Shown here in pieces: positions 13,015-26,854 of a stretch of 64,000 bases of DNA. The notes below the pieces were generated by a model. That model worked only from the letters and a program-made list of their open reading frames with translations. It did no database searches and was not told the DNA's origin. This DNA is from Paucidesulfovibrio gracilis DSM 16080 (GTDB lineage Bacteria > Desulfobacterota > Desulfovibrionia > Desulfovibrionales > Desulfovibrionaceae). The DNA is taken from positions 248,001-312,000 of the forward strand of contig NZ_FUYC01000001.1 of NCBI RefSeq assembly GCF_900167125.1, given 5' to 3'. The position numbers and the translations under genes are program-made. Numbering within the stretch: position 1 is the first letter of the stretch; every line of letters starts with the position of its first letter.

Positions 13015-13782
13015 TTATCTCCAGCGATCCATAAACTCGCCCACGGTGCCGCCATCGTCCAGGTGTTCAATGAGTGCGGAACCGAACACGGCCGCATCCA
13101 CCAACCCGGTAAGTTCCGCAAGCTGCTCGGGACGGCGAAGCCCGAAGCCAAGGGCCAGGGGAACATCAAAGGCCGCTTTGGCCAGTTCCAGCCGGGCGCG
13201 CACCTGGGCGGGCAGGCTCTCCCGCGCGCCCGTGGTGCCGAGTACGGATACGAAATACGCAAATCCGCGAGCATGCTTCGCATACAGCGCCATGCGTTCG
13301 GCATCGGTGTTCAGCCCCACCAGCGGAATCAAGGCCACGCCCTGCTCCTCCAAAACCGAACGCACCTCGTCAGCCTCCTCATAGGGCAAATCCGCCAGGA
13401 TCACGCCGCCCACGTCAGCCCGCGCCGCATCCCGCGCAAACCGTTCCAGGCCGTACTGCAATACGGGATTGAGGTATCCCATGAGCACCAGTCCGGCCCG
13501 GAATTCACGTTTTTGCAATTCGGATAAAATCCATTCCAAATTCACGCCATTTTCCAATGCCTTGAGCGAGGCCCGCTCCACAACCGGCCCATCCGCCACG
13601 GGGTCGGAAAACGGCATGCCGATCTCAATCACGGCCGCGCCCTTGGTATCCAGCCCCACCAGGGTCTGCCAAAAGGTTTCCCGGTGCGGATACCCGGCGG
13701 GCAAAAACGGTACCAGGGCGGGACGGCCCTTGGCTGTGGCCTCTTCAATGCGTTGCGTCAGTTTTTCGCTTGGCGCGCTCAT
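13015..13782 (-). CDS. trpA: Tryptophan synthase alpha subunit
   Basis: 255 residues. Cleaves indole-3-glycerol phosphate to indole, which is channelled to TrpB. The catalytic Glu and Asp lie in AAVIEIGMPFSDPVADGP, the TrpA signature. The phosphate-binding part is near SVLGTTGARESLP and GFGLRRPEQL. Last gene of the twelve-gene aromatic operon; its start overlaps the stop of trpB by 1 base. Normal length, no damage seen. Confidence 0.97.
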   Translation of the reverse strand: MSAPSEKLTQRIEEATAKGRPALVPFLPAGYPHRETFWQTLVGLDTKGAAVIEIGMPFSDPVADGPVVERASLKALENGVNLEWILSELQKREFRAGLVLMGYLNPVLQYGLERFARDAARADVGGVILADLPYEEADEVRSVLEEQGVALIPLVGLNTDAERMALYAKHARGFAYFVSVLGTTGARESLPAQVRARLELAKAAFDVPLALGFGLRRPEQLAELTGLVDAAVFGSALIEHLDDGGTVGEFMDRWR

Positions 13783-14942
13783 TACAAATACTCCTCCACG
13801 ATTCCCATATCCTTATCGCCCCGGCCCGAAAGGCAGACCAGCACCGATTGTCCCTGCAACTCCCCGGCGTGCTCCATGACCCAGCCCACGGCGTGGGAAC
13901 TTTCCAGCGCCGGAATAATCCCCTCGGTGCGCGAAAGGGTTTGAAACGCCTTCAACGCCTGGGCATCGTCGCATGTGCCGTACCGGACGCGCCCCGAGGC
14001 GTGGTACATGGCGTGCTCCGGTCCGACGCCAGGATAATCCAGCCCGGCGGAAACCGAGTGGGAAGGAAGAATCTGGCCTTCCCCGGTTTGCAACAGCTTG
14101 GTCTTCATGCCGTGCAACACCCCGTCCGTCCCCAGGTTCAGCGGCGCGGAATTGTAGCACCCGGGTTCCCCGGTGCCTGCGGCCTCCACGCCCACCAGTT
14201 GCACGGACTCGTCCGGCACAAAATGATGGAACATGCCGATGGCGTTGGATCCGCCGCCCACGCAGGCGGAAACCACGTCCGGCAGGACGCCGTTCTTCTC
14301 CAGAAACTGCTTTCGCGCCTCATGCGAAATCACGGCCTGGAAATCACGCACCAGCAGAGGAAACGGATGCGGCCCGGCCGCCGTGCCGAAACAATAGTGC
14401 GTGTCGGCCTGATCCGCGATCCAACGGCGCAAGGCCTCGTTGATGGCGTCCTTAAGCGTTCTGGTGCCGGATTGCACGGCCACCACCTCGGCCCCGAGCA
14501 ATTCCATGCGGCGCACGTTCACGTTTTGCCGTTCCACGTCCACTGCGCCCATGTAGACCACGCAGTTCAACCCCAGCAACGCCGCGGCCGTGGCCGTGGC
14601 CACACCGTGCATGCCCGCCCCGGTCTCGGCCAGCAGGGTGGTCTTGCCCATGCGTTTGGTCAGCAGCGCCTGGCCAATGGTATTGTTCACCTTGTGCGCG
14701 CCCGTATGATTCAAATCCTCCCGCTTGAGCCAGAGATCCAGGCCCAGTTGCGCGGAAAGATTGCGGCAGTGGGTGATGGGCGAGGGGCGGCCCACATACT
14801 CCTGAAGATACCCCATCAGCTCATCCTGAAACGCCGGAGTCTGCACAATGCTCTCCAGGGCTTCCTCCAGTTCCAGCAAAGGCGGCATCAACAATTCCGG
14901 TACGAATTGGCCGCCAAATGATCCAAAATAGCCTTTTTTCAT
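13782..14942 (-). CDS. trpB: Tryptophan synthase beta subunit
   Basis: 386 residues from the ATG at 14942 (MKKGYFGSFGGQFVPE), with AGGAG 10 bases upstream; an in-frame GTG at 14960 overlapping trpF is the alternative. PLP enzyme that joins indole and serine. The PLP lysine lies in NHTGAHKVNN and the phosphate-binding loop is VGGGSNAIGMFH. TrpB1-type length and partner spacing, next to trpA, consistent with an alpha2-beta2 complex. Confidence 0.97.
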   Translation of the reverse strand: MKKGYFGSFGGQFVPELLMPPLLELEEALESIVQTPAFQDELMGYLQEYVGRPSPITHCRNLSAQLGLDLWLKREDLNHTGAHKVNNTIGQALLTKRMGKTTLLAETGAGMHGVATATAAALLGLNCVVYMGAVDVERQNVNVRRMELLGAEVVAVQSGTRTLKDAINEALRRWIADQADTHYCFGTAAGPHPFPLLVRDFQAVISHEARKQFLEKNGVLPDVVSACVGGGSNAIGMFHHFVPDESVQLVGVEAAGTGEPGCYNSAPLNLGTDGVLHGMKTKLLQTGEGQILPSHSVSAGLDYPGVGPEHAMYHASGRVRYGTCDDAQALKAFQTLSRTEGIIPALESSHAVGWVMEHAGELQGQSVLVCLSGRGDKDMGIVEEYL

Positions 14943-14949
14943 CTCCGCT

Positions 14950-15654
14950 TCACTCCTCACGTTCCACGACGCTCCGCTCCGGTGCGCCGCTGTATATGAT
15001 CCGCATGACCTGTTTTACTTCTTCCAGATTCTTTTTTCCCGGCGCGGTTTCCACGCCCGAACTCATGTCCACTCCGTGCGGCCGCGGCAGGCCCGGTTCT
15101 TCCAAGGCCGTCAGAACAGCGGGCAGCGTGGTCGGTCCCAGCCCCCCGGCAAGCAGCCAGGGACGCGGAGACCGCACCCCGGACAGCAAGCCGGGATCAA
15201 ATCCTCGTCCATGCCCGCCGCCGCCCTTTCCCGCATCCAGCAGCATCCATCCGCACACCGGAGCAAAGCGCTCCAGATCATCCTGCAATGCCCGGGAAGA
15301 GGCGTATCGTTCCGGCCAGAACACCTTGATGATCCGTTCCCGGCCCAAGGCGCTGACCAGCTGGCCGCACACTTCAAATCCATGGTTTCCGTCGCGCCCA
15401 TGCCCGCCGTGCAGCTGGACCATGTCCAGACCACAACGGTGCGTCAGGGCAACGACATCGGACACGCCCTGCTTGACGAACACTCCGACCTTGCGCGCCC
15501 CGCCGGATCGAACCAGCGACACCATGGCCGGATCCGCACAACGGCGGCTTGATGCATGGAAAATGAACCCGAGCAGGTCCGCGCCAAGCTCCATGCAAGC
15601 CCGGGCCTCCTGCTCCGAGGTCAGACCGCAAATCTTCACCAGGGGCCGCCTCAT
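14950..15654 (-). CDS. trpF: Phosphoribosylanthranilate isomerase
   Basis: 234 residues. The N-terminal VKICGLTSEQEA contains the general-base Cys, and WMLLDAGKGGGGHGRGFD contains the general-acid Asp. (beta/alpha)8 enzyme converting PRA to CdRP. The ATG overlaps the trpC stop (ATGA), so the two are coupled but unfused. The active-site loop is Gly-rich (GKGGGGHGRG) in place of the common GGTG form, a family variation. Confidence 0.95.
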   Translation of the reverse strand: MRRPLVKICGLTSEQEARACMELGADLLGFIFHASSRRCADPAMVSLVRSGGARKVGVFVKQGVSDVVALTHRCGLDMVQLHGGHGRDGNHGFEVCGQLVSALGRERIIKVFWPERYASSRALQDDLERFAPVCGWMLLDAGKGGGGHGRGFDPGLLSGVRSPRPWLLAGGLGPTTLPAVLTALEEPGLPRPHGVDMSSGVETAPGKKNLEEVKQVMRIIYSGAPERSVVEREE

Positions 15655-16436
15655 GAGACCTCCGGTCCCCCGGCCCGGGCCAGGGATCGGACCACGGACC
15701 CGGGATCAGGATCCGCCATGATGGCGGTCCCCACCAGCACGGCATCGTACCCCATGGCCGCAGCGGACCGGACCTGGGATGGCTCGGAAACACCGCTCGC
15801 CGCGATCCAGACCTCCCCGGCCCCCCGCCGGGCCGCAAGCCGTTCAATATTTCCCCGGTCCACTTCCAACGTGTCCAGATCCCGAGCATTCACCTGAATG
15901 ATCCCGGCCCCGGCCAGGCGTGCTGATGCAAGATCCTGTTCATCAAAGATCTCCACCACGGCCTCCAATTCCAACGCCGTGGCACGCTGGATCATTGCAG
16001 CCAGGGCATCCACGTCCGGAAACATACGCACGATCAACAGCAGGGCCGAAGCCGGGCTGGAGGCCGTGGCATCCACCTGGAGCGGATCAAACAGGAAATC
16101 CTTGCGCAGCAGGGGCAATCCATGCCCGGCACAGGCACCCAGGAACGCGAAATCTCCTTTGAAAAATGTCTCCTCCGTGAGCACACTCATGGCAGCGGCT
16201 CCATTTTCCTCAAACAACGACGCGGCATCGCGGGGCAGCAATGTGCCGTTGATATGCCCCATGCTGGGCGAGGCTCGCTTATATTCCGCGATAAGCGCCC
16301 CTGGACCGCGACCGCGCAACCGCGCTGAAAAGGACGGACGATGCCCGTACCAGGGCCGCGGCATGGCGCCGCGTTCCGCCAGTTCCCGAAGTTGCGCGAT
16401 TTCCATCGCCTTGGCCTCGCGAAAACGATTCAGCAT
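15651..16436 (-). CDS. trpC: Indole-3-glycerol phosphate synthase
   Basis: 261 residues from the ATG at 16436, which lies inside the end of trpD and has GGGGAGG 4 bases upstream. Motifs: catalytic Lys in IAEYKRASPSMGHI, LRKDFLFDPLQV with the second Lys, EIFDEQDL, IIQVNARDLDTLEVD, and AASGVSEPSQV. Converts CdRP to indole-3-glycerol phosphate. Overlaps trpD by 7 bases and trpF by 4. Confidence 0.96.
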   Translation of the reverse strand: MLNRFREAKAMEIAQLRELAERGAMPRPWYGHRPSFSARLRGRGPGALIAEYKRASPSMGHINGTLLPRDAASLFEENGAAAMSVLTEETFFKGDFAFLGACAGHGLPLLRKDFLFDPLQVDATASSPASALLLIVRMFPDVDALAAMIQRATALELEAVVEIFDEQDLASARLAGAGIIQVNARDLDTLEVDRGNIERLAARRGAGEVWIAASGVSEPSQVRSAAAMGYDAVLVGTAIMADPDPGSVVRSLARAGGPEVS

Positions 16437-17443
16437 GCCACCTCCCCGCGTCGCAAGCCGCCCTTGACGTAATCCCGGGCCACCTCGGAACACGATTCCA
16501 TGTCCCCCTCACCCAGAATATGCAGGCAAGCCGCCAGATTCAGGGCCACCATCTGCATCATGGGTTCCGGTCCCCGGCCCTTGAGGATATCCCGCAGCAC
16601 GGCCACGGCGTGTTCCTTGCCTTCCACTTCCACAGCCTCGGGCGAAAAACGCCGGAATCCGAGCCGCACAGGATCCACCACCGTCTTGTCCATACGGCCT
16701 TTTTCAATGTAATACCCACGGGCCGGGCCAAAGGTGGTCAGCTCGTCGTAGCCGCCTGCACCGTGGATGAGCAGTGCCCGCTCCACGCCCGTAAGCAGCA
16801 GAGTCTCGCCCATGAGGTTGAGCATGTCCGGATCGCTGACGCCCAGCAGCTGGTGCGTTGGCCGCGCCGGATTGAGCAGCGGTCCCATGAAGTTGAACAG
16901 CGTGCGGATGCCCATACCCTGGCGTACCGGAGCGATATGCTTGAAGGCGGGGTGGTAGGCCGGAGCAAAAAGGAAGACGAAATGATTCCGGTCCAGTTCG
17001 GCGGCCACCTGCTCCGGTTCGGTATTCAACTCGCAGCCCAGCGCCTCCAGTGCGTCCGCACTGCCGCAGGAGGAGGACACAGCGCGATTGCCGTGCTTGA
17101 CCACCTGGTGTCCCATGTCGGCCAGAAACAACGCTGTGGCCGTGGAGCAATTGAAGCTGTTCTTGCCGTCCCCACCTGTGCCGCAGGTGTCGATGCGCGG
17201 CCCGGAAAGACCGGTGATCTGCCGGGCATGTTTGAGTCCGGCGCGCACCCCGGCGGCCAGGTCCGTGGAATCCTCGCCCTTGGCCCGCAAGCCCATGAGG
17301 AACGCCCCGGCAGCGGCCTGCCCCAAATTCCCGGAAAGCAATTCTTCAAACATACCATCCGCTTGGTCGTCACTGAGTGCCTTGCCTTCCAACAACAACT
17401 CCAACACCTGGGCTGAATTCACGGCAGTGGTCATCGTGGTCAT
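16430..17443 (-). CDS. trpD: Anthranilate phosphoribosyltransferase
   Basis: 337 residues. PRPP-dependent transfer of phosphoribose to anthranilate. Motifs: DTCGTGGDGKNSFNCSTA (PRPP pyrophosphate loop), KHGNRAVSSSCGSADALEALG, and NFMGPLLNPARPTHQLLGV. AGGAGAGAAGG lies just upstream of the ATG. Separate from trpG rather than fused. Usual length. Confidence 0.97.
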   Translation of the reverse strand: MTTMTTAVNSAQVLELLLEGKALSDDQADGMFEELLSGNLGQAAAGAFLMGLRAKGEDSTDLAAGVRAGLKHARQITGLSGPRIDTCGTGGDGKNSFNCSTATALFLADMGHQVVKHGNRAVSSSCGSADALEALGCELNTEPEQVAAELDRNHFVFLFAPAYHPAFKHIAPVRQGMGIRTLFNFMGPLLNPARPTHQLLGVSDPDMLNLMGETLLLTGVERALLIHGAGGYDELTTFGPARGYYIEKGRMDKTVVDPVRLGFRRFSPEAVEVEGKEHAVAVLRDILKGRGPEPMMQMVALNLAACLHILGEGDMESCSEVARDYVKGGLRRGEVAC

Positions 17444-17455
17444 GATCCTTCTCTC

Positions 17456-18028
17456 CTATCTTTCCTGAATATTTAAAAAATTATGCAACAGTTTCGGTCC
17501 GTCCGGCGTTAATATGGATTCGGGATGGAACTGCACCCCATGCCAGGGCCGATCCCCATACTCCAACCCCATGACTTCGCCGCGCTCGGTCCGCGCTGTG
17601 ATCCGCAGCAGCTCCGCTCCTTCCGGCCGCACCACCAGGGAGTGATACCGGCAAACTTCCAGGGGCTGGGGCAGGCCAGCGAACACGCCCTGGCCCTCAT
17701 GCCGCACCGCCGAAGTCTTGCCGTGCATGATGCGTTCGTTGCGGTTCACTTCCGCACCTGCGAACCGTCCCAGGATCTGATGTCCCAGACAGACGCCCAA
17801 CAGCGGCACCTCATGGGGCAACAGCGACAAAAACCGCAGGCAATGTCCGGCATTGTCCGGGTGGCTTGGTCCGGGCGAAAGGCAGACCCGCCGCACCCCG
17901 GCCACGAACTCCCGGTCCAGCAACTCTTCCCGGTTATTGCGCAGCACCACGGGATCAGCTCCCAGTTGCTGGAAGGCCTGCACCAGGTTGAAGGTGAAGG
18001 AATCAAAATTATCGATCAGCAAAAACAT
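17456..18028 (-). CDS. trpG: Anthranilate synthase glutamine amidotransferase subunit
   Basis: 190 residues from the ATG at 18028 (MFLLIDNFDSFTFNLVQ), preceded by GGGAGG at 6 bases. The start lies inside the end of trpE, a 20-base overlap. Triad class I glutaminase: nucleophile Cys in LLGVCLGHQ and the His-Glu pair in GVQFHPESI. Supplies ammonia to TrpE. Such subunits can also serve PabA function; none of the other pab genes is visible here. Confidence 0.96.
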   Translation of the reverse strand: MFLLIDNFDSFTFNLVQAFQQLGADPVVLRNNREELLDREFVAGVRRVCLSPGPSHPDNAGHCLRFLSLLPHEVPLLGVCLGHQILGRFAGAEVNRNERIMHGKTSAVRHEGQGVFAGLPQPLEVCRYHSLVVRPEGAELLRITARTERGEVMGLEYGDRPWHGVQFHPESILTPDGPKLLHNFLNIQER

Positions 18029-19487
18029 CGCCGTCCTCCCTGCCGCGCACCACTTCCCGCAGCACCCGCGCCTTGTTGTTGCATTCCTGCCATTCCTTTT
18101 CCGGATCGGAATCGAACACAATGCCCGCCCCGGCCTGCCAGTGGATCTGCTCCCCGCGAATCCACAACGAACGGATGGTGATGCCCGTGTCCAGGCTCAC
18201 CGGTCCGGCTCCCAGCCCCAGCCAGCCGATGCAGCCCGCATACGGCCCGCGCGGTCGGGATTCCCCGTGCTCCGCTTCCAAATCCGCAATAATCTCCATG
18301 GCCCGGATCTTGGGTGCGCCCGAGACCGTCCCGGCCGGAAACGTGGCCGCCAGCACGTCCAGGGCATCCAGCCCGTCCCGCAGTTGCGCATCCACGTAGG
18401 ACGTCAGGTGCATGACGTGGGAAAAACGCTCCACCTGCATGAACCGCCGCACGTTCACGCTGCCGGGCGCGGCAATACGGCCCAGGTCGTTGCGGCCCAA
18501 ATCCACCAGCATGACGTGCTCGGCCCGTTCCTTGGGATCCGCCAACAACTCTTCGGCAAGAGACTGGTCCTCGGCCTCGTCCGCGCCCCGGGGCCGCGTT
18601 CCCGCAATGGGACGCACTTCCAAATGTCCCCGGTCGCACCGCACCAGCATTTCCGGGGATGATCCCAGCAGGGTCATGTCCTCGCCGGAACCGTCGGGCA
18701 GGTGCATGTAAAACATGAACGGCGAAGGGTTGGCCTGACGAAGCCGCCGGTAGATGCGGAACGGCGCATCCGTGAGCGGGGCGGTAAACCGTGTGGAAAG
18801 CACCACCTGGATGCATTCCCCGTCACGAATCAATTCCTTGGCCCGTTCTACCGCGGCCTTGTATCCCGCCCGCTCGGGAGTGGATTCCGGCTCTGCCTCG
18901 GCAGCGCGTGGCGCTGCAATATCCTGAAAACTCGGCACAGGTTTGGGCAGAGGCTTGTCGTCCCGATCCAAACTCAGGAAGCAGCAACGATGCCGGAGGT
19001 GGTCAAAAAGCACCATGCGTCCGGGCAGGGCCAGGGCCAGGTCGGCGTCTTCCGCCGGTAAAGCCGTTTCCAGCTCCGGTTCCAGCAATCCGGCTACCCC
19101 GTATCCGAGATACCCGATCAGACTCCGTGTAATGGGCGGCAAATCCTCCCGATCCGATGCCGGGGATCCGTCCTGCTTAGGAAGGGACTGACGGACGTCG
19201 ATCATGGCCAAGGCCCGCCGCAGCCCCTCCACACAGGGCATGCCGTTCAATTCCGCCAACGGTCGCAAGCGCTGATCCAACACATCCACGGCCAAACGGC
19301 CCTGCCGCTGGGTGAACAAACACCGAAAATCCCAGGCCATCAGACTATAGCGACCCAATCGGCCGTCCACTTCCGCGCTTTCAAGCAGAATACCCGGCGC
19401 ATCGCCCACGAGTCCCAGATAGAGACTGATGGGGGTCTGCACGTCCGCAGGCAACCATTGTCCAAATTGCGTCAACGTCAGTCGCAT
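18009..19487 (-). CDS. trpE: Anthranilate synthase component I
   Basis: 492 residues. Makes anthranilate from chorismate with TrpG. The feedback site motif LLESAEVDGRLGRYS (about residue 35-49) is intact, so allosteric inhibition by tryptophan is expected. The catalytic C-terminal half holds ECIQVVLSTRF, PIAGTRPRG and TFPAGTVSGAPKIRAME. GGGGAGG lies 7 bases before the ATG. It follows tyrA after the only sizeable gap of the operon (214 bases), which holds a hairpin and a short upstream reading frame. Confidence 0.97.
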   Translation of the reverse strand: MRLTLTQFGQWLPADVQTPISLYLGLVGDAPGILLESAEVDGRLGRYSLMAWDFRCLFTQRQGRLAVDVLDQRLRPLAELNGMPCVEGLRRALAMIDVRQSLPKQDGSPASDREDLPPITRSLIGYLGYGVAGLLEPELETALPAEDADLALALPGRMVLFDHLRHRCCFLSLDRDDKPLPKPVPSFQDIAAPRAAEAEPESTPERAGYKAAVERAKELIRDGECIQVVLSTRFTAPLTDAPFRIYRRLRQANPSPFMFYMHLPDGSGEDMTLLGSSPEMLVRCDRGHLEVRPIAGTRPRGADEAEDQSLAEELLADPKERAEHVMLVDLGRNDLGRIAAPGSVNVRRFMQVERFSHVMHLTSYVDAQLRDGLDALDVLAATFPAGTVSGAPKIRAMEIIADLEAEHGESRPRGPYAGCIGWLGLGAGPVSLDTGITIRSLWIRGEQIHWQAGAGIVFDSDPEKEWQECNNKARVLREVVRGREDGDVFADR

Positions 19488-19701: not shown

Positions 19702-20490
19702 TCAGGACTCGGAACGCCACCACCATCGGGCGTGCTCGGACAAGAGGTCCAGGTCGCCGCCCGCGGCGATGTTCAGAAAGCCCGTGAACTGACGCACGGT
19801 TTCCTGGAGGTGTGGATTGGATTCGGAAATGGTCTCAAACAGGTCGGTATCTTCGGTGAGCATCTTGCGCGCCGAGTCCAGCCGACGTTGAAAGGAAGGC
19901 GTCAAATATTTTTCAATGCCCGACACCTGCCGCATGGCCGCAAGGTGGGCCACCGTGGAGATAAAGTTCAGCCCCTGCACGTAGGCCACGGCGCGGTCAT
20001 GTTCTTCGGGGGTGGACAGGAAGGGTTCAAACCCCATGTCCGTAAACAGTGCGTTCACCAACGCCGGGTCCGCGCCCGGTCCCGGGGTTACGGCCACACG
20101 GGGAGCGAATCCCTCCGGGATGACCGGCCCGAACAAAGGATGCGTGCCCACCACGGAACCCTTCCAGGCCCGGCGCATGCGGCGCATGGGCAAGACCTTC
20201 ACGGAGCAGATGTCCGCCAGGATCGCGTCTTCGGCCAGATGCGGCACAACATCCGCGAGCACCGTGTCCAGCGCGGGTACGGGAACACAGAGCAGGACCA
20301 CGCCGCAGTCCCGAAGCCGGGGCAGTTCTTCCGGGGCGAGCCGGTCGCTGCCCGAAGCCAGATCCAGGCCCACGACCCGCCGGCCGGCCGCCACAGCGCG
20401 GCCCGCCAGCAGCGTTCCCATACGCCCCCGCGCCCCCACAAGCCCGAGGCAGGCCGACGCGTTGATCTCGTTTTCTTCCTGCGTGGTCAT
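19702..20490 (-). CDS. tyrA: Prephenate dehydrogenase
   Basis: 262 residues; the ATG at 20490 overlaps the aroA stop (ATGA). The Rossmann loop is CLGLVGARGRMGTLLAGRA (about residue 14-32), with ADICSVK and the substrate-site motif VVGTHPLFGP. The C-terminal helical dimerisation domain follows (HDRAVAYVQGLNF). Oxidatively decarboxylates prephenate to 4-hydroxyphenylpyruvate for tyrosine. No chorismate mutase or ACT domain is attached: in this operon the mutase is on PheA. The NAD/NADP preference cannot be told. Confidence 0.92.
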   Translation of the reverse strand: MTTQEENEINASACLGLVGARGRMGTLLAGRAVAAGRRVVGLDLASGSDRLAPEELPRLRDCGVVLLCVPVPALDTVLADVVPHLAEDAILADICSVKVLPMRRMRRAWKGSVVGTHPLFGPVIPEGFAPRVAVTPGPGADPALVNALFTDMGFEPFLSTPEEHDRAVAYVQGLNFISTVAHLAAMRQVSGIEKYLTPSFQRRLDSARKMLTEDTDLFETISESNPHLQETVRQFTGFLNIAAGGDLDLLSEHARWWWRSES

Positions 20491-21872
20491 GACCGTTGTA
20501 ACTCCAGATTCGCAGGTGACACCTTGGCCCAATCCTCCCAAAAGCCGGGATAGGACTTGGACACGCACAGCACATCGTCCAGCACGGGACGCACCCCGGC
20601 AAAGGCCAGCAAGGAAAGGCTCATGGCAATGCGGTGATCCCCGAAGCATTGCAGTTCCACGGATTCTCCGTCCCGCAAGCCTTCGGGTCCGCGACCATGC
20701 ACAAGCAGCCCGTCCGACGTCTCCTCCACGGGACATCCGGCCCGGGCCAGCTGCGTCTGCATGGCCGCCAGCCGGTCGCACTCCTTCAGGCGCAGATGCG
20801 GCACGCCGCGGATCACGGTCTCGCCTCGGGCAAACGCCGCGGTCACGGCCACCGTGGGTACGAGGTCCGGGCAGCGGCCCATGTCCACATCCACGCCCCG
20901 CAGGGAGGACGGGTATGCGGTCACCCCGGTGTAGTCCGTGGCAAACCGTGCGCCCATTTGGGCTAAAATTTCCAGCACGGCCCGATCGCCCTGAAGCGAA
21001 TCCGCGTGCAGGCCTTCCACCCGCACGGGGCGGGAACCCACGATACCGGCCGCCAGCAGATATGAGCCGTTGCTCCAATCCCCTTCCACCCGGTAATCAG
21101 CGCCTTCATATTCTCCGGGCTGGATTTCGAACCGGGTCCGGCCGGGTTCGGCACGTTTCAGAGAGCGCCACGGCACGGAGTTCCATTCTCCGCTGTCGTC
21201 CCTGGTCTGCACGGAAAATTCAATACCGAAATCCTGCATCACACGAAGTGTCAGCGCCACATAAGGCCAGGAAAGGCTTTTGGAGCCAGTCAAAACAATG
21301 CTCATGGGCTTACGGGCCAGGGGCGCGGCCAGAAGCAGGCCGGAAAGATACTGGCTGGATTCCTCCAGGCTGATTTCCACCCGCCCGCCGGACAGCCCCT
21401 CGGCGTGCAGCACAAAAGGTGGGCAGCCCTCATTGCCGAGCCAGTCAAATTTCGCGCCCAACCGTTCCAGAGCCGTGGTCAGTTCCCCAATGGGCCGTTC
21501 GTGCATGCGGTCCGCCCCATGCACCTTGAACGCGCCGTGACCGGCAGCCAGCACAGCGGTAAGCAATCGACAGCTCGTTCCCGATTCATTCACAAAGATG
21601 TCAACGGGTTTTCCCAGGCCCGAGGGATCCGCGCCCTGGCCTCCGCCCAGCGGCCCTTCCTTGAATCCGTCCACACGCAGCAAGGCGTCCTGTTGCGCCA
21701 TGACTGCGCCGGCCGCTTCCAGGCATTGGCGGGTCACGTCCAGGTCCACGCTTTGCAGGACATTTTCCAGGTCGCACCTTCTGGCTGCCAGACTGGCCGC
21801 GATCAGGGCGCGGTGGGAAAGAGACTTGGACGCCGGAGCCGTGATGGTCACCATTTCAGCACTCGTGGACAT
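20487..21872 (-). CDS. aroA: 5-enolpyruvylshikimate-3-phosphate synthase
   Basis: 461 residues. Motifs: APASKSLSHRALIAA at the N terminus, VNESGTSCRLLTA, HERPIGELTTALERLGA, RLKECDRLAAM and FGDHRIAMSLSLLA. Transfers enolpyruvate from PEP to shikimate-3-phosphate. The substrate-loop reads NESGTS rather than the NAGTA found in glyphosate-sensitive class I enzymes. The start codon is 1 base after the pheA stop. The intermediate shikimate genes (aroD/E/K) are not in the window. Confidence 0.95.
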   Translation of the reverse strand: MSTSAEMVTITAPASKSLSHRALIAASLAARRCDLENVLQSVDLDVTRQCLEAAGAVMAQQDALLRVDGFKEGPLGGGQGADPSGLGKPVDIFVNESGTSCRLLTAVLAAGHGAFKVHGADRMHERPIGELTTALERLGAKFDWLGNEGCPPFVLHAEGLSGGRVEISLEESSQYLSGLLLAAPLARKPMSIVLTGSKSLSWPYVALTLRVMQDFGIEFSVQTRDDSGEWNSVPWRSLKRAEPGRTRFEIQPGEYEGADYRVEGDWSNGSYLLAAGIVGSRPVRVEGLHADSLQGDRAVLEILAQMGARFATDYTGVTAYPSSLRGVDVDMGRCPDLVPTVAVTAAFARGETVIRGVPHLRLKECDRLAAMQTQLARAGCPVEETSDGLLVHGRGPEGLRDGESVELQCFGDHRIAMSLSLLAFAGVRPVLDDVLCVSKSYPGFWEDWAKVSPANLELQRS

Positions 21873-21873
21873 A

Positions 21874-22992
21874 TCAGCAATTCTCCAGATGCGGTCCGGC
21901 CGGGTAGGAACCCAGGAACCGCAGGGTATGGCAATGGTCTCGCAATTCGTCGGTCAACGGCTTGAACGCGGGGTCGGCAAGGTCGCATTCCAAATCCGCG
22001 AAGAACACGTATTTCCACCGTTCCCCGCGGGAAGGACGCGATTCCAGCTTGCTCAAGTTCACGCCCCGACGGGAAAAAATCTCCAGCACCGTCCCCAGTG
22101 CGCCGGGCCTGTCCGGCGTGGTGAAAAGGATGGAGCTTTTGTCCCGTTCCTTTTCCTGGCCCGGAGCCGGAGCAATGACCAGAAAACGGGTCCAGTTGTC
22201 GGGCAGATCCTCCAGATGTTCGGCCAGGACGTTGAGTCCGAAAAGTTCGGCCAGACGCACATGCCCCACCACAGCGGAGCCGTCCCCGGCATCCCGGGCC
22301 AGCCGTGCGGCAGCGGCCGTGCTGGACATGGGCAGTCGCGGCGCCTCGGGCAGGTTCGCCTCCAACCATTCCCCACACTGGCCCAGGGCTTTGGAATGGG
22401 AATACACGCGGGTGACGTGGCCCAGGCCGGGTACCGCGGCCAACAGCGCATGGCTGATGCGCGAATAGAGTTCCGCCTGCACGAACACGGGATAGCGCAT
22501 GAACAGGTCCACGGTCTGGCCCACGGTACCCTGGAGCGAATTTTCCAGAGGAACGATGCCCAGCTCGGCACCGCCTTCGGCCACAGCGCGGAAGACCTCC
22601 CCCAGGTTCGACTTGGGGGTCAGCTCGGCCATGTGTCCCATGAACTCGATGCCCGCAAAATAGGAGAACGTGCCTTCCGGACCAAGATAGACCACGCGCT
22701 CGGGCCGTTGCAGACGGCGGGACGAGGACATGATCTCGCGATAGATGGAATAGAGGTGGCGATCCGGCAGAGGACCGGGGTTGAGCACCTGCAACCGGGT
22801 AATGACTTCCTTTTCCCGGCGTGGCTTGAAGATGGGTTCAGCTGATCCGGCCTTGTGCCGCCCCACTTCCAGGCTCACTTCCGCCCGCTGGTTGAGCAGG
22901 TCCAAAATGGCTTCGTCCAGGGCGTCGATGCGTTCGCGCATTCCGGTCAGCCCGGTATCGTCGGGCAGCGTGTCCTTCCTGTTCCCGTGCAT
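21874..22992 (-). CDS. pheA: Bifunctional chorismate mutase / prephenate dehydratase (P-protein)
   Basis: 372 residues from the ATG at 22992, just after the aroB' stop. Chorismate mutase (AroQ type) covers about residues 18-95 (RERIDALDEAILDLLNQRAE). Prephenate dehydratase covers about 100-280, with YLGPEGTFSYFA, PLENSLQGTVGQT and the catalytic NWTRFLVIA (Thr-Arg-Phe). The C-terminal ACT domain has GALGTVLEIFSRRGVNLSKLESRPSRG, including the ESRP motif that binds phenylalanine, so Phe feedback inhibition is expected. It supplies prephenate for both Phe and Tyr arms. Confidence 0.96.
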   Translation of the reverse strand: MHGNRKDTLPDDTGLTGMRERIDALDEAILDLLNQRAEVSLEVGRHKAGSAEPIFKPRREKEVITRLQVLNPGPLPDRHLYSIYREIMSSSRRLQRPERVVYLGPEGTFSYFAGIEFMGHMAELTPKSNLGEVFRAVAEGGAELGIVPLENSLQGTVGQTVDLFMRYPVFVQAELYSRISHALLAAVPGLGHVTRVYSHSKALGQCGEWLEANLPEAPRLPMSSTAAAARLARDAGDGSAVVGHVRLAELFGLNVLAEHLEDLPDNWTRFLVIAPAPGQEKERDKSSILFTTPDRPGALGTVLEIFSRRGVNLSKLESRPSRGERWKYVFFADLECDLADPAFKPLTDELRDHCHTLRFLGSYPAGPHLENC

Positions 22993-22996
22993 GGGC

Positions 22997-23980
22997 CTAG
23001 CCTTCCTTGATGTCCTCTTGAATGCGCATTCCGAAATGGCGGCCCGCCTCGTCCGTCCGGCAGAGAATTTCATCCCCTTCCCGCAGGGAGACCACGCTCA
23101 CGGGTTCGCCGTCCGGACGCACCACGCGGATGGTTTCGGCGTTCTGCAAAAACACCTGCCCCTGTTTCGGTCCGTCCGGCGTGTCCACCCGGGCCTCGAT
23201 GAGCAGCATGGGCCGCACCTCCACCTTGACCCGGCCGACCGTGCTCAGATTGGTGTTGCCCTGGGCGTCCACCACCAGCACCTGTGATCCGGCGCAAAGC
23301 TCTTCCAGATACGAAGTACGGTCCCCGGGCATCTGGGCGTAGGCGTGGACGGCACCAGCATTGATCCGGAACGGACGCGCCGCCACATAGGGATTGGATT
23401 CGGTTTCGGCATGCACCAGAAACGTAAAGGCCGAAGAATTGCCCACCAGCATGCCCTGGCCCCGACGCAACATGGAGATGGTGTCCACGCAGACGCGATG
23501 CCCCAGCCCGGCGGGACGAATGGCGGTGACCACCGCAGTGGAAAGATCCATGACACCCTGCGAAAGTTTGAGTTCGGAAACAATGGCCTTCAGTTCCGCG
23601 GCGGCCTCGGGCAGCACCACCACCCCGGCGACGCCCCGCTCCAAAACACCGGCGGCCAGGCGCGCCCGCTCCAGGGAGCCGACCTCCACCACCACGTCGT
23701 CCTGCTGCGCCAGGATGTTTTCCAGGGGGATGATTTCCCACCCCTCGGCCAGGACCACGGCTTCCCCGCCGCGCATCCGGTCCACGGCCTCCTCTTCAGC
23801 GGTTTTATCCGTGATGGAGACCACCGGCATGGCCGACTCGGACACGACTTCCACCCGGCCCAGGGACAACACGTCGTCCACGCGCTCCGGTTCGGTAAGG
23901 ACCGCGTCCACGCCCGATTCGAGCGCCAGGGTCACCAGGTGTTTGTCAAACGGCACAGCCTTGAAAATGATACGTTTCAT
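22997..23980 (-). CDS. aroB': 3-dehydroquinate synthase II (archaeal type)
   Basis: 327 residues. Converts the ADH intermediate made by the upstream gene to 3-dehydroquinate by oxidative deamination and cyclisation, as in Methanocaldococcus. Recognised by overall sequence: MRGGEAVVLAEGWEIIPLENIL, VGNSSAFTFLVHAETESNPYV, RPFRINAGAVHAYAQMPG and YLEELCAGSQVLVVDA. It replaces the DAHP-based AroB. The archaeal-type aro pair is known from Desulfovibrio; here it heads the operon. Confidence 0.95.
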   Translation of the reverse strand: MKRIIFKAVPFDKHLVTLALESGVDAVLTEPERVDDVLSLGRVEVVSESAMPVVSITDKTAEEEAVDRMRGGEAVVLAEGWEIIPLENILAQQDDVVVEVGSLERARLAAGVLERGVAGVVVLPEAAAELKAIVSELKLSQGVMDLSTAVVTAIRPAGLGHRVCVDTISMLRRGQGMLVGNSSAFTFLVHAETESNPYVAARPFRINAGAVHAYAQMPGDRTSYLEELCAGSQVLVVDAQGNTNLSTVGRVKVEVRPMLLIEARVDTPDGPKQGQVFLQNAETIRVVRPDGEPVSVVSLREGDEILCRTDEAGRHFGMRIQEDIKEG

Positions 23981-23994
23981 GAATCCCGCTCGCT

Positions 23995-24795
23995 TTACTT
24001 TCCGTCCACCAAGGCCACGGCCTCGTCCACCTGCATGTCCTCATGTACCACCATGGACAACGCCTGCACCAGCTTGGTCACCCGGGGGTGCTGGAACACG
24101 TTGCGCCCCACGGAAAGACCAGCTCCGCCGGCCATCAGAGAATCACGAACCATCTGTAAGAATTCTCCGGTGCTGTCCATTTTCGGACCGCCCGCAATAA
24201 CCACGGGGATGCAGCATGCGCCCGTCACCCGGGAGAAGCTGTCGGGATCCCCGGTGTAATTCACTTTGACCACATCCGCGCCCAGTTCCGTTCCCACGCG
24301 TGCGCAATGCGCCACAACGGCTGGATCGTACTCGTCCTTCACCTTGGGTCCGCGGGCGTAGACCATGGCCAGAAGCGGCATGCCCCAGCGGGCCGCGTCC
24401 GTGGCCACCCGGCCCACATCGCGAAGCATGTCGGTTTCGTTGTCGTCCCCCAGGTTCAGATGCACGCTTACGGCATCCGCCCCCAGGCAGACCGCATCCT
24501 CCACCGAGGCCACCAGTCCCTTGTAGTTGGGCCGGGGGGAAAGACAGGTGGAGGCGGACAAGTGGACGATCAGTCCCACATCACGCCCTTCGGCACGGTG
24601 GCCGCAGCGCACGTTGCCCTTGTGCTCCAGCACGGCATTGGCTCCGCCTTCCACCACGCGGCTCACGGCCTCGCGCATGTCCTCAATGCCCTCAATGGGT
24701 CCCACCGTGACGCCATGGTCCATGGGAACCACGATGGTTCGGTGGGTGTTGCGGTTGAAGATCCGCTCCAGCCGGATGGCTTTTCCAATATGCAT
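23995..24795 (-). CDS. aroA': 2-amino-3,7-dideoxy-D-threo-hept-6-ulosonate synthase (archaeal-type first aro enzyme)
   Basis: 266 residues from the ATG at 24795 (GGAG 7 bases upstream). Class I aldolase of the FBA-like (DhnA) family: [44 protein letters not shown], the Schiff-base Lys in [13 protein letters not shown], and [18 protein letters not shown]. It condenses aspartate semialdehyde with a 6-deoxy-5-ketofructose-1-phosphate-derived unit to start aromatic synthesis without DAHP. First gene of the operon; its mRNA leader carries the aromatic attenuator. Confidence 0.94.
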
Positions 24796-24839: not shown

Positions 24840-24879
24840 AACAAACAAAGGGCCACCGGCATTTTGCCAGCGGCCCTTT
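24840..24879 (-). terminator. Attenuator terminator hairpin of the aro-trp operon
   Basis: Outer stem AAAGGGCC (24879-24872 on the minus strand) with GGCCCTTT (24854-24847), extended inward by seven more pairs (two G-U) to a tri-A loop, then a U-rich tail GTTTGTTT (24846-24839). It lies 28 bases after the leader-peptide stop codon and 45 bases before aroA'. The 5' arm includes CCGCTGGC (24873-24866), which can instead pair with GTCAGCGG (24937-24930) inside the leader-peptide frame, giving a candidate antiterminator. Confidence 0.8.
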
Positions 24880-24907
24880 GAAGAGATTCACCTGATGATA
24901 CTGTACG

Positions 24908-25000
24908 TTAGGCTACAACTCTCCCGTGACCGCTGACGCGGGTAAACCAATACCAAAAATAAAAGGAGGCGAACACGCCGAGGTCTTTGTGAGAGTTCAT
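24908..25000 (-). CDS. Aromatic leader peptide (Phe/Tyr/Trp) controlling the aro-trp operon
   Basis: 30 residues, ATG at 25000, TAA at 24910-24908. Residues 13-19 are seven consecutive aromatic amino acids, FYFWYWF, with another Phe at residue 10: four Phe, two Tyr and two Trp codons in ten positions. This is the composition expected of an attenuation leader that senses all three charged aromatic tRNAs, placed in front of genes for the shared pathway and all three branches. The terminator follows downstream. A TTGACA at 25035-25030 with a poor -10 would put the transcript start close to the ATG (leaderless translation). An AAGGAG 18 bases upstream is rather far for a normal ribosome site. The peptide itself is read directly; its role is inferred. 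Confidence 0.85.
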
Positions 25001-25053
25001 GCTTTTTGGCTACTGAAGCTCCTTAAAGCTGTCAACCATTTTTTTTCGTTCAT

Positions 25054-25068: not shown

Positions 25069-25430
25069 TGGGAACATTTTTTTCTTCGGCGGACTGGAGC
25101 ACCGTGCGCCCATTCCGACATATTCAGAACACGTCCTTCAAGATCCCACGGGTCCGTGGGAACGTAAACCACCCCACGCGCACCCCACACCCCACGTTTT
25201 GTCATCGGTTCTTTTTTGAGGGCAAAAAAAAGGACGATACCGCCTACTTTTGTATCCACCTTCCATGCACCTACCCCGATTGTCACGCTGGGAGGAAAAT
25301 AGTTCAAATTAACTTTTTTGTAAATTTACAAGTTTTATAGACTAAATTTCTACGTAAATTTGACAATTTTGAAATATTTTGTCTTGACGTAAAACCTGTT
25401 TCTTCAATAATTCCAGAGAGGTGCCAACTT

Positions 25431-25446
25431 TGGCACGGTCACTGCT
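25431..25446 (+). promoter_or_regulatory. Sigma-54 promoter of amtB-glnK
   Basis: TGGCACGGTCACTGCT matches the -24/-12 consensus TGGCACG-N4-TTGCW, with GG and GC exactly 12 bases apart and one mismatch. It lies 47 bases before the amtB start, as expected for a nitrogen-controlled gene activated by an NtrC-type enhancer-binding protein. Confidence 0.8.
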
Positions 25447-25492
25447 TATCTCGATCCGTCTACAACGCAATTTTCAACAGAAGGAGCTTTTC

Positions 25493-26854
25493 ATGTCAAC
25501 CGAGTATCCCGATTCCCGCAAGCGCCGCATCACCGCGCTCCCGGGCATGCTGGCCCTGGCGCTGACCCTCGTCCCCGGCCTCGCCCTGGCACAGGACGCG
25601 CCTGAGCTGCTCACCCAGGACAATGCCAACATCCTCTGGACCCTCATCGCGGCCATCCTGGTCATGTTCATGCAGGCCGGGTTCGCCTGCGTGGAATGCG
25701 GCTTCACGCGCGCCAAAAGCGCCGGCAACATCATCATGAAAAACTTTTTGGACTTCGGTGCCGGACAGATCGTCTTCTACTTTCTCGGATTCGGTCTCAT
25801 GTTCGGCACCGGCTCCAGCCTGCTCGGACTCTCCAATTTCGGACTGAGCGGCGTGGCCGATGCGGACCTGCCCTGGTCATACACTTTCTGGTTCTTCCAG
25901 TCCGTGTTTGCGGCCACTGCGGCCACCATCGTTTCCGGCGGCATTGCCGAGCGCACCAAGTTCGGAACCTACGTACTGGTCTCCCTGGTGGTTACGGGCG
26001 TGATCTACCCCATTTCCGGACACTGGGCCTGGGGCAGCCTTTACGGTGACGCGGGCTGGCTCGAATCCACCTTCTCCGTGGCCTTCTGCGACTTTGCCGG
26101 TTCCTCCGTGGTTCACTCCGTAGGCGGCTGGCTCGCCCTGGCCGGCGCCCTGGTCGTGGGACCGCGCATCGGTAAGTACGACAACGACGGCAAGGCCCGC
26201 GCCATCCCCGGCCACAACATCCCCCTGGCCGCCCTTGGCGTGTTCATCCTCTGGTTCGGCTGGTTCGGCTTCAACCCCGGCTCCACCACCACGGCGGATT
26301 CGAGCATCGGTCTCATCGCCATGAACACATCCCTGGCCGCTGCGGCCGGATCCCTGGCTGCCCTGGCTGTGTCCTGGCTGCGCTTCGGCAAGCCCGACAT
26401 GTCCATGACCATGAACGGCTCCCTGGCGGGTCTGGTGGGCATTACCGCTCCCTGCGCCACGGTGCTTCCCGGTTCCGCGATCCTCATCGGTCTGGTGGCC
26501 GGCGCCCTGGTGGTGCTCTCCATCGAATTCATCGACAAAGTGCTGCGGATCGACGATCCGGTCGGCGCGGTTTCCGTGCACGGCGTGTGCGGTGCCTGGG
26601 GAACCCTGGCCTGTGGGTTGTTCAACACGGACGGCGGCCTCTTCTTCGGCGGCGGTCTGGCCCAGCTCGGCGTCCAGGTCGTGGGTGTGGCAGTGTTCTT
26701 TGTCTGGGCCTTTGGAACCGGTCTGATCACCTTCACCGTACTCAAGAAGCTCATGGGCCTGCGCGTGAGCGAGGAAGAGGAACGCAAGGGGCTGGACATC
26801 TCCGAACACGGCTCCGAAGCCTACAGCGGCTTCCAGATCTTCACCGTGGAATAG
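25493..26854 (+). CDS. amtB: Ammonium transporter
   Basis: 453 residues from the ATG at 25493, preceded by AGAAGGAG; the open frame runs back to 25421 but that stretch contains the sigma-54 promoter. A cleavable signal peptide (LALALTLVPGLALAQ) is followed by about 11 helices. Motifs: CVECGFTRAKSAGNIIMKN, the first pore His in FAGSSVVHSVGG, and the second in AVSVHGVCGAWGTLACG. Conducts ammonia/ammonium under nitrogen limitation. Paired with a PII protein 49 bases downstream that would plug the pore when nitrogen is plentiful. Confidence 0.96.
   Translation: MSTEYPDSRKRRITALPGMLALALTLVPGLALAQDAPELLTQDNANILWTLIAAILVMFMQAGFACVECGFTRAKSAGNIIMKNFLDFGAGQIVFYFLGFGLMFGTGSSLLGLSNFGLSGVADADLPWSYTFWFFQSVFAATAATIVSGGIAERTKFGTYVLVSLVVTGVIYPISGHWAWGSLYGDAGWLESTFSVAFCDFAGSSVVHSVGGWLALAGALVVGPRIGKYDNDGKARAIPGHNIPLAALGVFILWFGWFGFNPGSTTTADSSIGLIAMNTSLAAAAGSLAALAVSWLRFGKPDMSMTMNGSLAGLVGITAPCATVLPGSAILIGLVAGALVVLSIEFIDKVLRIDDPVGAVSVHGVCGAWGTLACGLFNTDGGLFFGGGLAQLGVQVVGVAVFFVWAFGTGLITFTVLKKLMGLRVSEEEERKGLDISEHGSEAYSGFQIFTVE

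Follow-up and report, generated by a model that had tools for sequence, protein, structure and literature searches.

The aro-trp operon of the window (the whole stretch of DNA that was analysed, 64 kb) is preceded by a short leader reading frame that combines codons for Phe, Tyr and Trp in a single run. We put at roughly nine in ten the probability that this leader belongs to a ribosome-mediated transcription attenuator that senses the three amino acids at once. Comparison across the bacterial order indicates that stalling of a ribosome on the leader would turn the operon on when any of the three is short. The evidence consists of the sequence elements and their conservation, the covariation between segments 2 and 3, the co-adaptation of segments 1 and 2, the spacing of the aromatic run and control codons that match the content of the operon. 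The leader, the operon and its neighbour are positioned as follows.

25000-24908, minus strand: leader peptide ORF, an ATG frame of 30 codons, read from the sequence.
24964-24944, minus strand: control codons F13-Y14-F15-W16-Y17-W18-F19 (FYFWYWF), read from the sequence; the run is kept in all orthologous operons read.
23995-24795, minus strand: aroA', 2-amino-3,7-dideoxy-D-threo-hept-6-ulosonate synthase (ADH synthase), first gene of the operon (TIGR01949, E 1e-115).
22997-23980, minus strand: aroB', 3-dehydroquinate synthase II (DHQ synthase II; NF002628).
21874-23073, minus strand: pheA, chorismate mutase/prephenate dehydratase (CM-PDT; family model).
20487-21872, minus strand: aroA, EPSP synthase (TIGR01356).
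19702-20490, minus strand: tyrA, prephenate dehydrogenase (PF02153; frame).
18009-19487, minus strand: trpE (family model).
13782-18121, minus strand: trpG, trpD, trpC, trpF and trpB (family models).
25421-26854, plus strand: ammonium transporter, the divergent upstream neighbour.

Behind trpB a trpA-like frame follows, which was assigned by position and sequence only. The identities given by the family models imply that the operon spans the alternative entry into the shikimate pathway as well as the Phe, Tyr and Trp branches. The initial annotation had described a frame of 30 codons containing seven consecutive aromatic codons and one more Phe, and this was borne out to the base (ORF 25000-24908, run 24964-24944); the additional Phe is codon 10 (F10), outside the run. 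When the 450 nt upstream of aroA' were shuffled with their dinucleotides preserved, a short ORF with at least six aromatic codons in a row was found in 0/1500 shuffles; the maximum was five, which occurred once. Within the 64-kb window the leader is the sole short ORF with an aromatic run of at least five.

Orthologous operons were gathered from the order by a whole-genome search, a scan of contigs with a single protein having given only five relatives. Across the order, aromatic leaders were read ahead of this operon in 178 genomes (138 + 15 + 25), with the incomplete locus L256 and the locus L266, which contains no aroA', left out of the count. In each of the 178 the control run contains Phe and Tyr codons, at least one of each kind, and conservation of the run extends over more than 30 genera. 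The order and the number of the control codons vary (Trp 0-3, Tyr 1-5, Phe 1-6). The alignment of the regions upstream of aroA' orthologues that had been proposed as a check thus revealed aromatic-codon runs throughout the order, together with a covarying pairing, and among the 178 leaders read there was none that lacked aromatic codons. In 395 genomes of the phylum, a search with the terminator pattern gave attenuator matches only within the order; the remaining matches look like chance matches in GC-rich sequence, many of them palindromic. Four loci (L080, L103, L107 and L133) carry a second aroA' in tandem, the leader being placed before the first of the two, and tandem copies behind one leader were observed in genomes G076, G093, G143 and G170. 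In G083/G122/G133 and G129/G131/G145/G159/G174 (genera g10, g6) the leader lies 100-200 nt farther from aroA' than usual.

The RNA elements of the leader region are given below.

24997-24982, minus strand: segment 1 (protector), AACTCTC (24997-24991) and GACC (24985-24982), from fold and co-adaptation.
24937-24928, minus strand: segment 2, GTCAGCGGTC, 5' strand of the antiterminator, within the leader ORF; pairing and covariation.
24875-24866, minus strand: segment 3, GGCCGCTGGC, 3' strand of the antiterminator and also 5' arm of the terminator; pairing and covariation.
24880-24846, minus strand: intrinsic terminator hairpin (3:4), 16-bp stem with a loop of 3; fold, -29.6 kcal/mol.
24849-24839, minus strand: U-rich tail TTTGTTTGTTT, overlapping the last stem bases, read from the sequence.

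The hairpin of 15 bp with a U-rich tail that had been proposed in front of aroA' was found as described, and one further closing C-G pair extends it to 16 bp. Since the upstream neighbour is divergent, this terminator is not the end of an upstream gene. A terminator was present at the equivalent place in 138/138 leaders examined. The U-tract of the window (TTTGTTTGTTT) is weaker than those of its relatives, which counts against the attenuator reading. The antiterminator that had been suggested, GTCAGCGG (24937-24930) with CCGCTGGC (24873-24866), proved exact and is supported by covariation. It extends to 10 bp (24937-24928 with 24875-24866), the duplex having an energy of -17.2 kcal/mol.

In almost every genome the run is directly followed by GCC[T/C/A]G[C/T]GG[T/C]C, which pairs with GGCCGC[A/G/T]GGC, the terminator's 5' arm. 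The central pair (n = 134) is U-A in 78 leaders, C-G in 42, U-G in 7 and A-U in 6, the last being the state of the window, and it is broken in one, that of G190, seemingly by a small indel; switches of this pair were seen inside the genera g1, g3, g8 and g15. Of all antiterminator cells 97.9% were paired, against 94.6 +/- 0.5% in shuffles (0/500 shuffles reached the observed value) and 34-44% when the strands were slid. Double-change cells numbered 16 against 5.1 +/- 1.9 in shuffles; they come from a single column, in which the evidence of covariation is thus concentrated. In 116/134 leaders the central base is mispaired in the terminator (A.G, G.G or A.A), which implies that it is the antiterminator that conserves this base. 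This mispairing is more discriminating evidence than the formal covariation count.

The same pairing bears on the peptide itself. A motif at its C-terminus, A-[CRS]-G, is conserved, as would be expected if the leader encoded a small peptide that functions in the membrane or in signalling and not a sensor. We regard this as very improbable, since the RNA pairing that is conserved accounts for the motif: A-C-G, A-R-G and A-S-G appear to be a by-product, and the changes between Cys, Arg and Ser follow the terminator base that is their pairing partner. G139 and G105 keep the RNA sequence of segment 2 although it is read there in another frame (QPVV), and the Phe leaders of an aroA' paralogue share the layout but have other control codons. 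Terminator/antiterminator architectures are also used by T-boxes and riboswitches, and the operon might be under the control of a different kind of leader RNA (T-box, TRAP-like site or riboswitch), the short ORF being incidental. This seems to us hardly credible. No relevant Rfam family matched at the gathering or the relaxed threshold, so that the Rfam search gave no family motif that would place the leader among the T-box, TRAP or riboswitch leaders; moreover, one antiterminator strand lies inside the ORF, directly behind an aromatic run that is conserved in more than 30 genera.

The partners of segment 1 are segment 2 and its flank: AACTCTC pairs with GAGAGTT (24923-24917) and GACC with GGTC (24931-24928). 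This pairing is stronger within a genus than across genera, with a z of -6.4 compared with -2.0 for a control region. In the equilibrium fold of the ribosome-free window RNA, 2:3 is favoured over 1:2, which counts against the attenuator reading and implies that low basal expression would have to come from the order of co-transcriptional folding or from ribosomes masking segment 2. Stalled ribosomes were modelled by masking 15 nt behind and 12 nt ahead of the start of the A-site codon, which are assumed footprint values, and by folding the remainder. Stalls at codons 13-18 left about 10 of the 2:3 pairs, a stall at F19 left 6.9, at T20 4.1 and at R21 0.3; 14 other genomes behaved alike. The distance from the last aromatic codon to segment 2 is 6 nt in 104 leaders and 9 nt in 23 (127/134 leaders). 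Together, the stall model and this spacing suggest that the aromatic run ends where stalling would cease to work.

The start of transcription, the stalling, the termination and the readthrough can be predicted from these elements. RNA polymerase would start on the leader AUG or no more than a few bases away from it, and this 5'-terminal AUG would be where a ribosome loads. If any of the Phe-, Tyr- and Trp-tRNAs ran short, the ribosome would stall in the FYFWYWF run with segment 1 behind or under it and segment 2 free, so that the 2:3 antiterminator could form and the polymerase could read through into the aro-trp operon. When all three are plentiful, the ribosome would reach the stop codon and cover segment 2, which would leave the 3:4 terminator to form. 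If the leader is not translated, 1:2 would form first and termination would again be favoured.

The proposed start is based on the spacing of two presumed promoter elements.

25030-25035, minus strand: presumed -35 element TTGACA, 35 nt upstream of the leader ATG, with a similar spacing in the majority of the orthologous leaders.
25012-25007, minus strand: presumed -10 element TAGCCA, which is weak, was not listed by a generic promoter scan and counts against the attenuator reading.

The hexamer TTGAC[A/T] occurs 35-40 nt before the leader ATG in 89/138 leaders from 18 genera, the window included (35 nt), and a Shine-Dalgarno-like motif is present in only 2 of these 89. For 44 other leaders the hexamer is 48-81 nt from the ATG, and 34/44 have such a motif. 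Given the spacing of sigma-70 promoters, a hexamer at 35-40 nt would put the transcription start on the ATG or no more than a few bases from it. In most genera, and in the window, the mRNA of the leader is probably leaderless. Two distinct states of the leader probably exist, a leaderless one (89/138, 18 genera) versus a remainder that is mostly Shine-Dalgarno-led, and the leader peptide would thus represent a probable case of leaderless translation in relatives of the sulfate reducers.

The initial annotation had stated that the composition of the leader matches an operon with three products. To relate leaders to trp genes, linkage was taken from coordinates where these were listed and from the genus for the remainder; the trpE hits of G149, G192 and G052, being weak and short, were taken as related chorismate-using enzymes. 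The statement held, composition following gene content: all leaders of operons that include the trp genes have Trp codons (107/107), two or three in about half of them. Where the trp genes are transcribed separately, 12/55 leaders have no Trp codon and none of the 55 has more than one. In the genomes from which trpE is missing (G052, G039, G105, G120, G149 and G192) Trp codons are absent in 6/6. All 18 Trp-less leaders therefore occur where the trp genes are lost (6/6) or separate (12/55). The Fisher test gave p 5e-9, a naive value that ignores kinship. On the aroA' tree the separation of the trp genes changed only 4 times and Trp codons were lost 7 times, each of these 7 losses in genomes with trp outside the operon; a sign test on independent pairs gave 4 supported pairs and has low power. 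With only about four departures of the trp genes from the operon, the correlation is phylogenetically underpowered, and the pattern would appear to represent consistent natural cases, not proof.

The Desulfovibrio-like genus g3 mostly retains one Trp codon in its aro leader after the trp genes moved out. Most of the separated trp operons are preceded by a leader of their own, such as GWWWRINMRGGDVRA, which contains one to three Trp codons and is accompanied by a terminator in those that were inspected. At the split-off trp operon loci L179-L191, L221-L224 and L285-L304 mostly own Trp leaders were seen, with WW or WWW in many. In G052 (L172) and G039 (L173), which are without trpE/trpD, pheA (G052) and aroA (G039) match the window genes only partly, and this suggests decay of the aromatic pathway.

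It is possible, if rather unlikely, that the attenuator is real and in practice senses one or two of the amino acids, for instance because one charged tRNA becomes limiting first, the other codons being kept for chorismate supply or by history. The variable order and number of the codons and the Trp codon that g3 keeps despite having its trp genes elsewhere would fit such a limited response. However, all three kinds of codon are kept in 107/107 operons with three branches, the modelled stalls at codons 13-18 free segment 2 equally, and Trp codons are absent only where the trp genes were lost or separated. These observations argue for the joint sensing of Phe, Tyr and Trp.

In Escherichia coli, trpL and pheL each sense one amino acid and are Shine-Dalgarno-led leaders. 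The window leader shares with them the control-codon ORF, the mutually exclusive antiterminator and terminator and the biosynthetic operon downstream; unlike them it mixes three aromatic codons in one run, has segment 2 inside the ORF and is probably leaderless. The features of leader-peptide attenuators that can be examined in a sequence were all found: a run of end-product codons in a short ORF ahead of a biosynthetic operon, an intrinsic terminator between this ORF and the first structural gene, an antiterminator mutually exclusive with the terminator (covariation), control codons at positions where stalling would leave segment 2 free (footprint model), and a 1:2 protector pairing that competes with 2:3, although at positions that differ between genera. 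As in multi-amino-acid leaders of the ilv type, codons for several end products track the gene content, with low phylogenetic power. It is very likely that the leader works by the mechanism of these attenuators.

The view in the initial annotation that classical leaders sense one amino acid was too strong, since leaders for the three branched-chain amino acids are established (Corynebacterium glutamicum ilvBNC, PMC11857589). IlvL of this operon, MTIIRLVVVTARRLP, is a leaderless three-amino-acid leader of which transcription starts one base from the start codon (PMC11857589). In ilvGMEDA and ilvBNC, as here, one leader carries codons for three related amino acids from one pathway; they differ in being branched-chain rather than aromatic, unrelated in sequence and from another phylum. 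The trpL transcript of Sinorhizobium meliloti begins at the AUG of a leaderless Trp leader (PMC7298713). Transcription attenuation is predicted for the window as well, and its transcript would probably likewise begin at the AUG, but trpL reads Trp only and belongs to a trpE(G) unit. For the Desulfovibrio vulgaris supraoperon aroA'-aroB'-pheA-aroF-tyrA-[trp], which is of the same type and from the same bacterial order, a table published in 2005 lists a putative attenuator that was predicted from structure and taken from Merino's database (PMC1173090, Table 7). The word 'leader' does not occur in that text, which accordingly names neither a leader peptide nor control codons and describes no covariation or relation to gene content. 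In the literature that was searched, no leader is described that reads Phe, Tyr and Trp jointly; reviews of trp attenuation available by subscription lay outside this search, and an earlier description may be present there. The leader described here reads all three before an operon that makes all three, is conserved order-wide and has natural cases without both Trp genes and Trp codons. With it, a long-standing question becomes testable: in what way an attenuator for several amino acids weighs the different tRNAs against one another, and how its control codons keep pace with gene content.

We consider it reasonably likely that the order controls aromatic synthesis by related attenuators and not by amino-acid-specific repressors: a leaderless tri-aromatic one at the aro-trp supraoperon, a homologous Phe-only one at a second ADH synthase and Trp-only ones at split-off trp operons. 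Control codons would be gained and lost as genes move, and leader composition would be a record of the products of the operon. The genome of the window contains three aroA' copies. The paralogue L003 (G000:C7:5331-6122) has a Phe-only leader, MTTRIRTNFFFVFFFFTAFRGLGVTL, with the same antiterminator/terminator scheme and thus a homologous attenuator, and the leaders of its orthologues in related genera (L192-L219) read RFFFFFSFYFRNACGLGV and similar. In 25/29 cases the -35 hexamer of this Phe leader has a spacing of 36-37 nt. The third copy, L002 (G000:C8:61161-61952), is without a leader. With one copy Phe-only, one tri-aromatic and one free of a leader ORF, it seems to be attenuators that distinguish the isozymes of the first step (ADH synthase), and this would be an alternative to allosteric isozymes.
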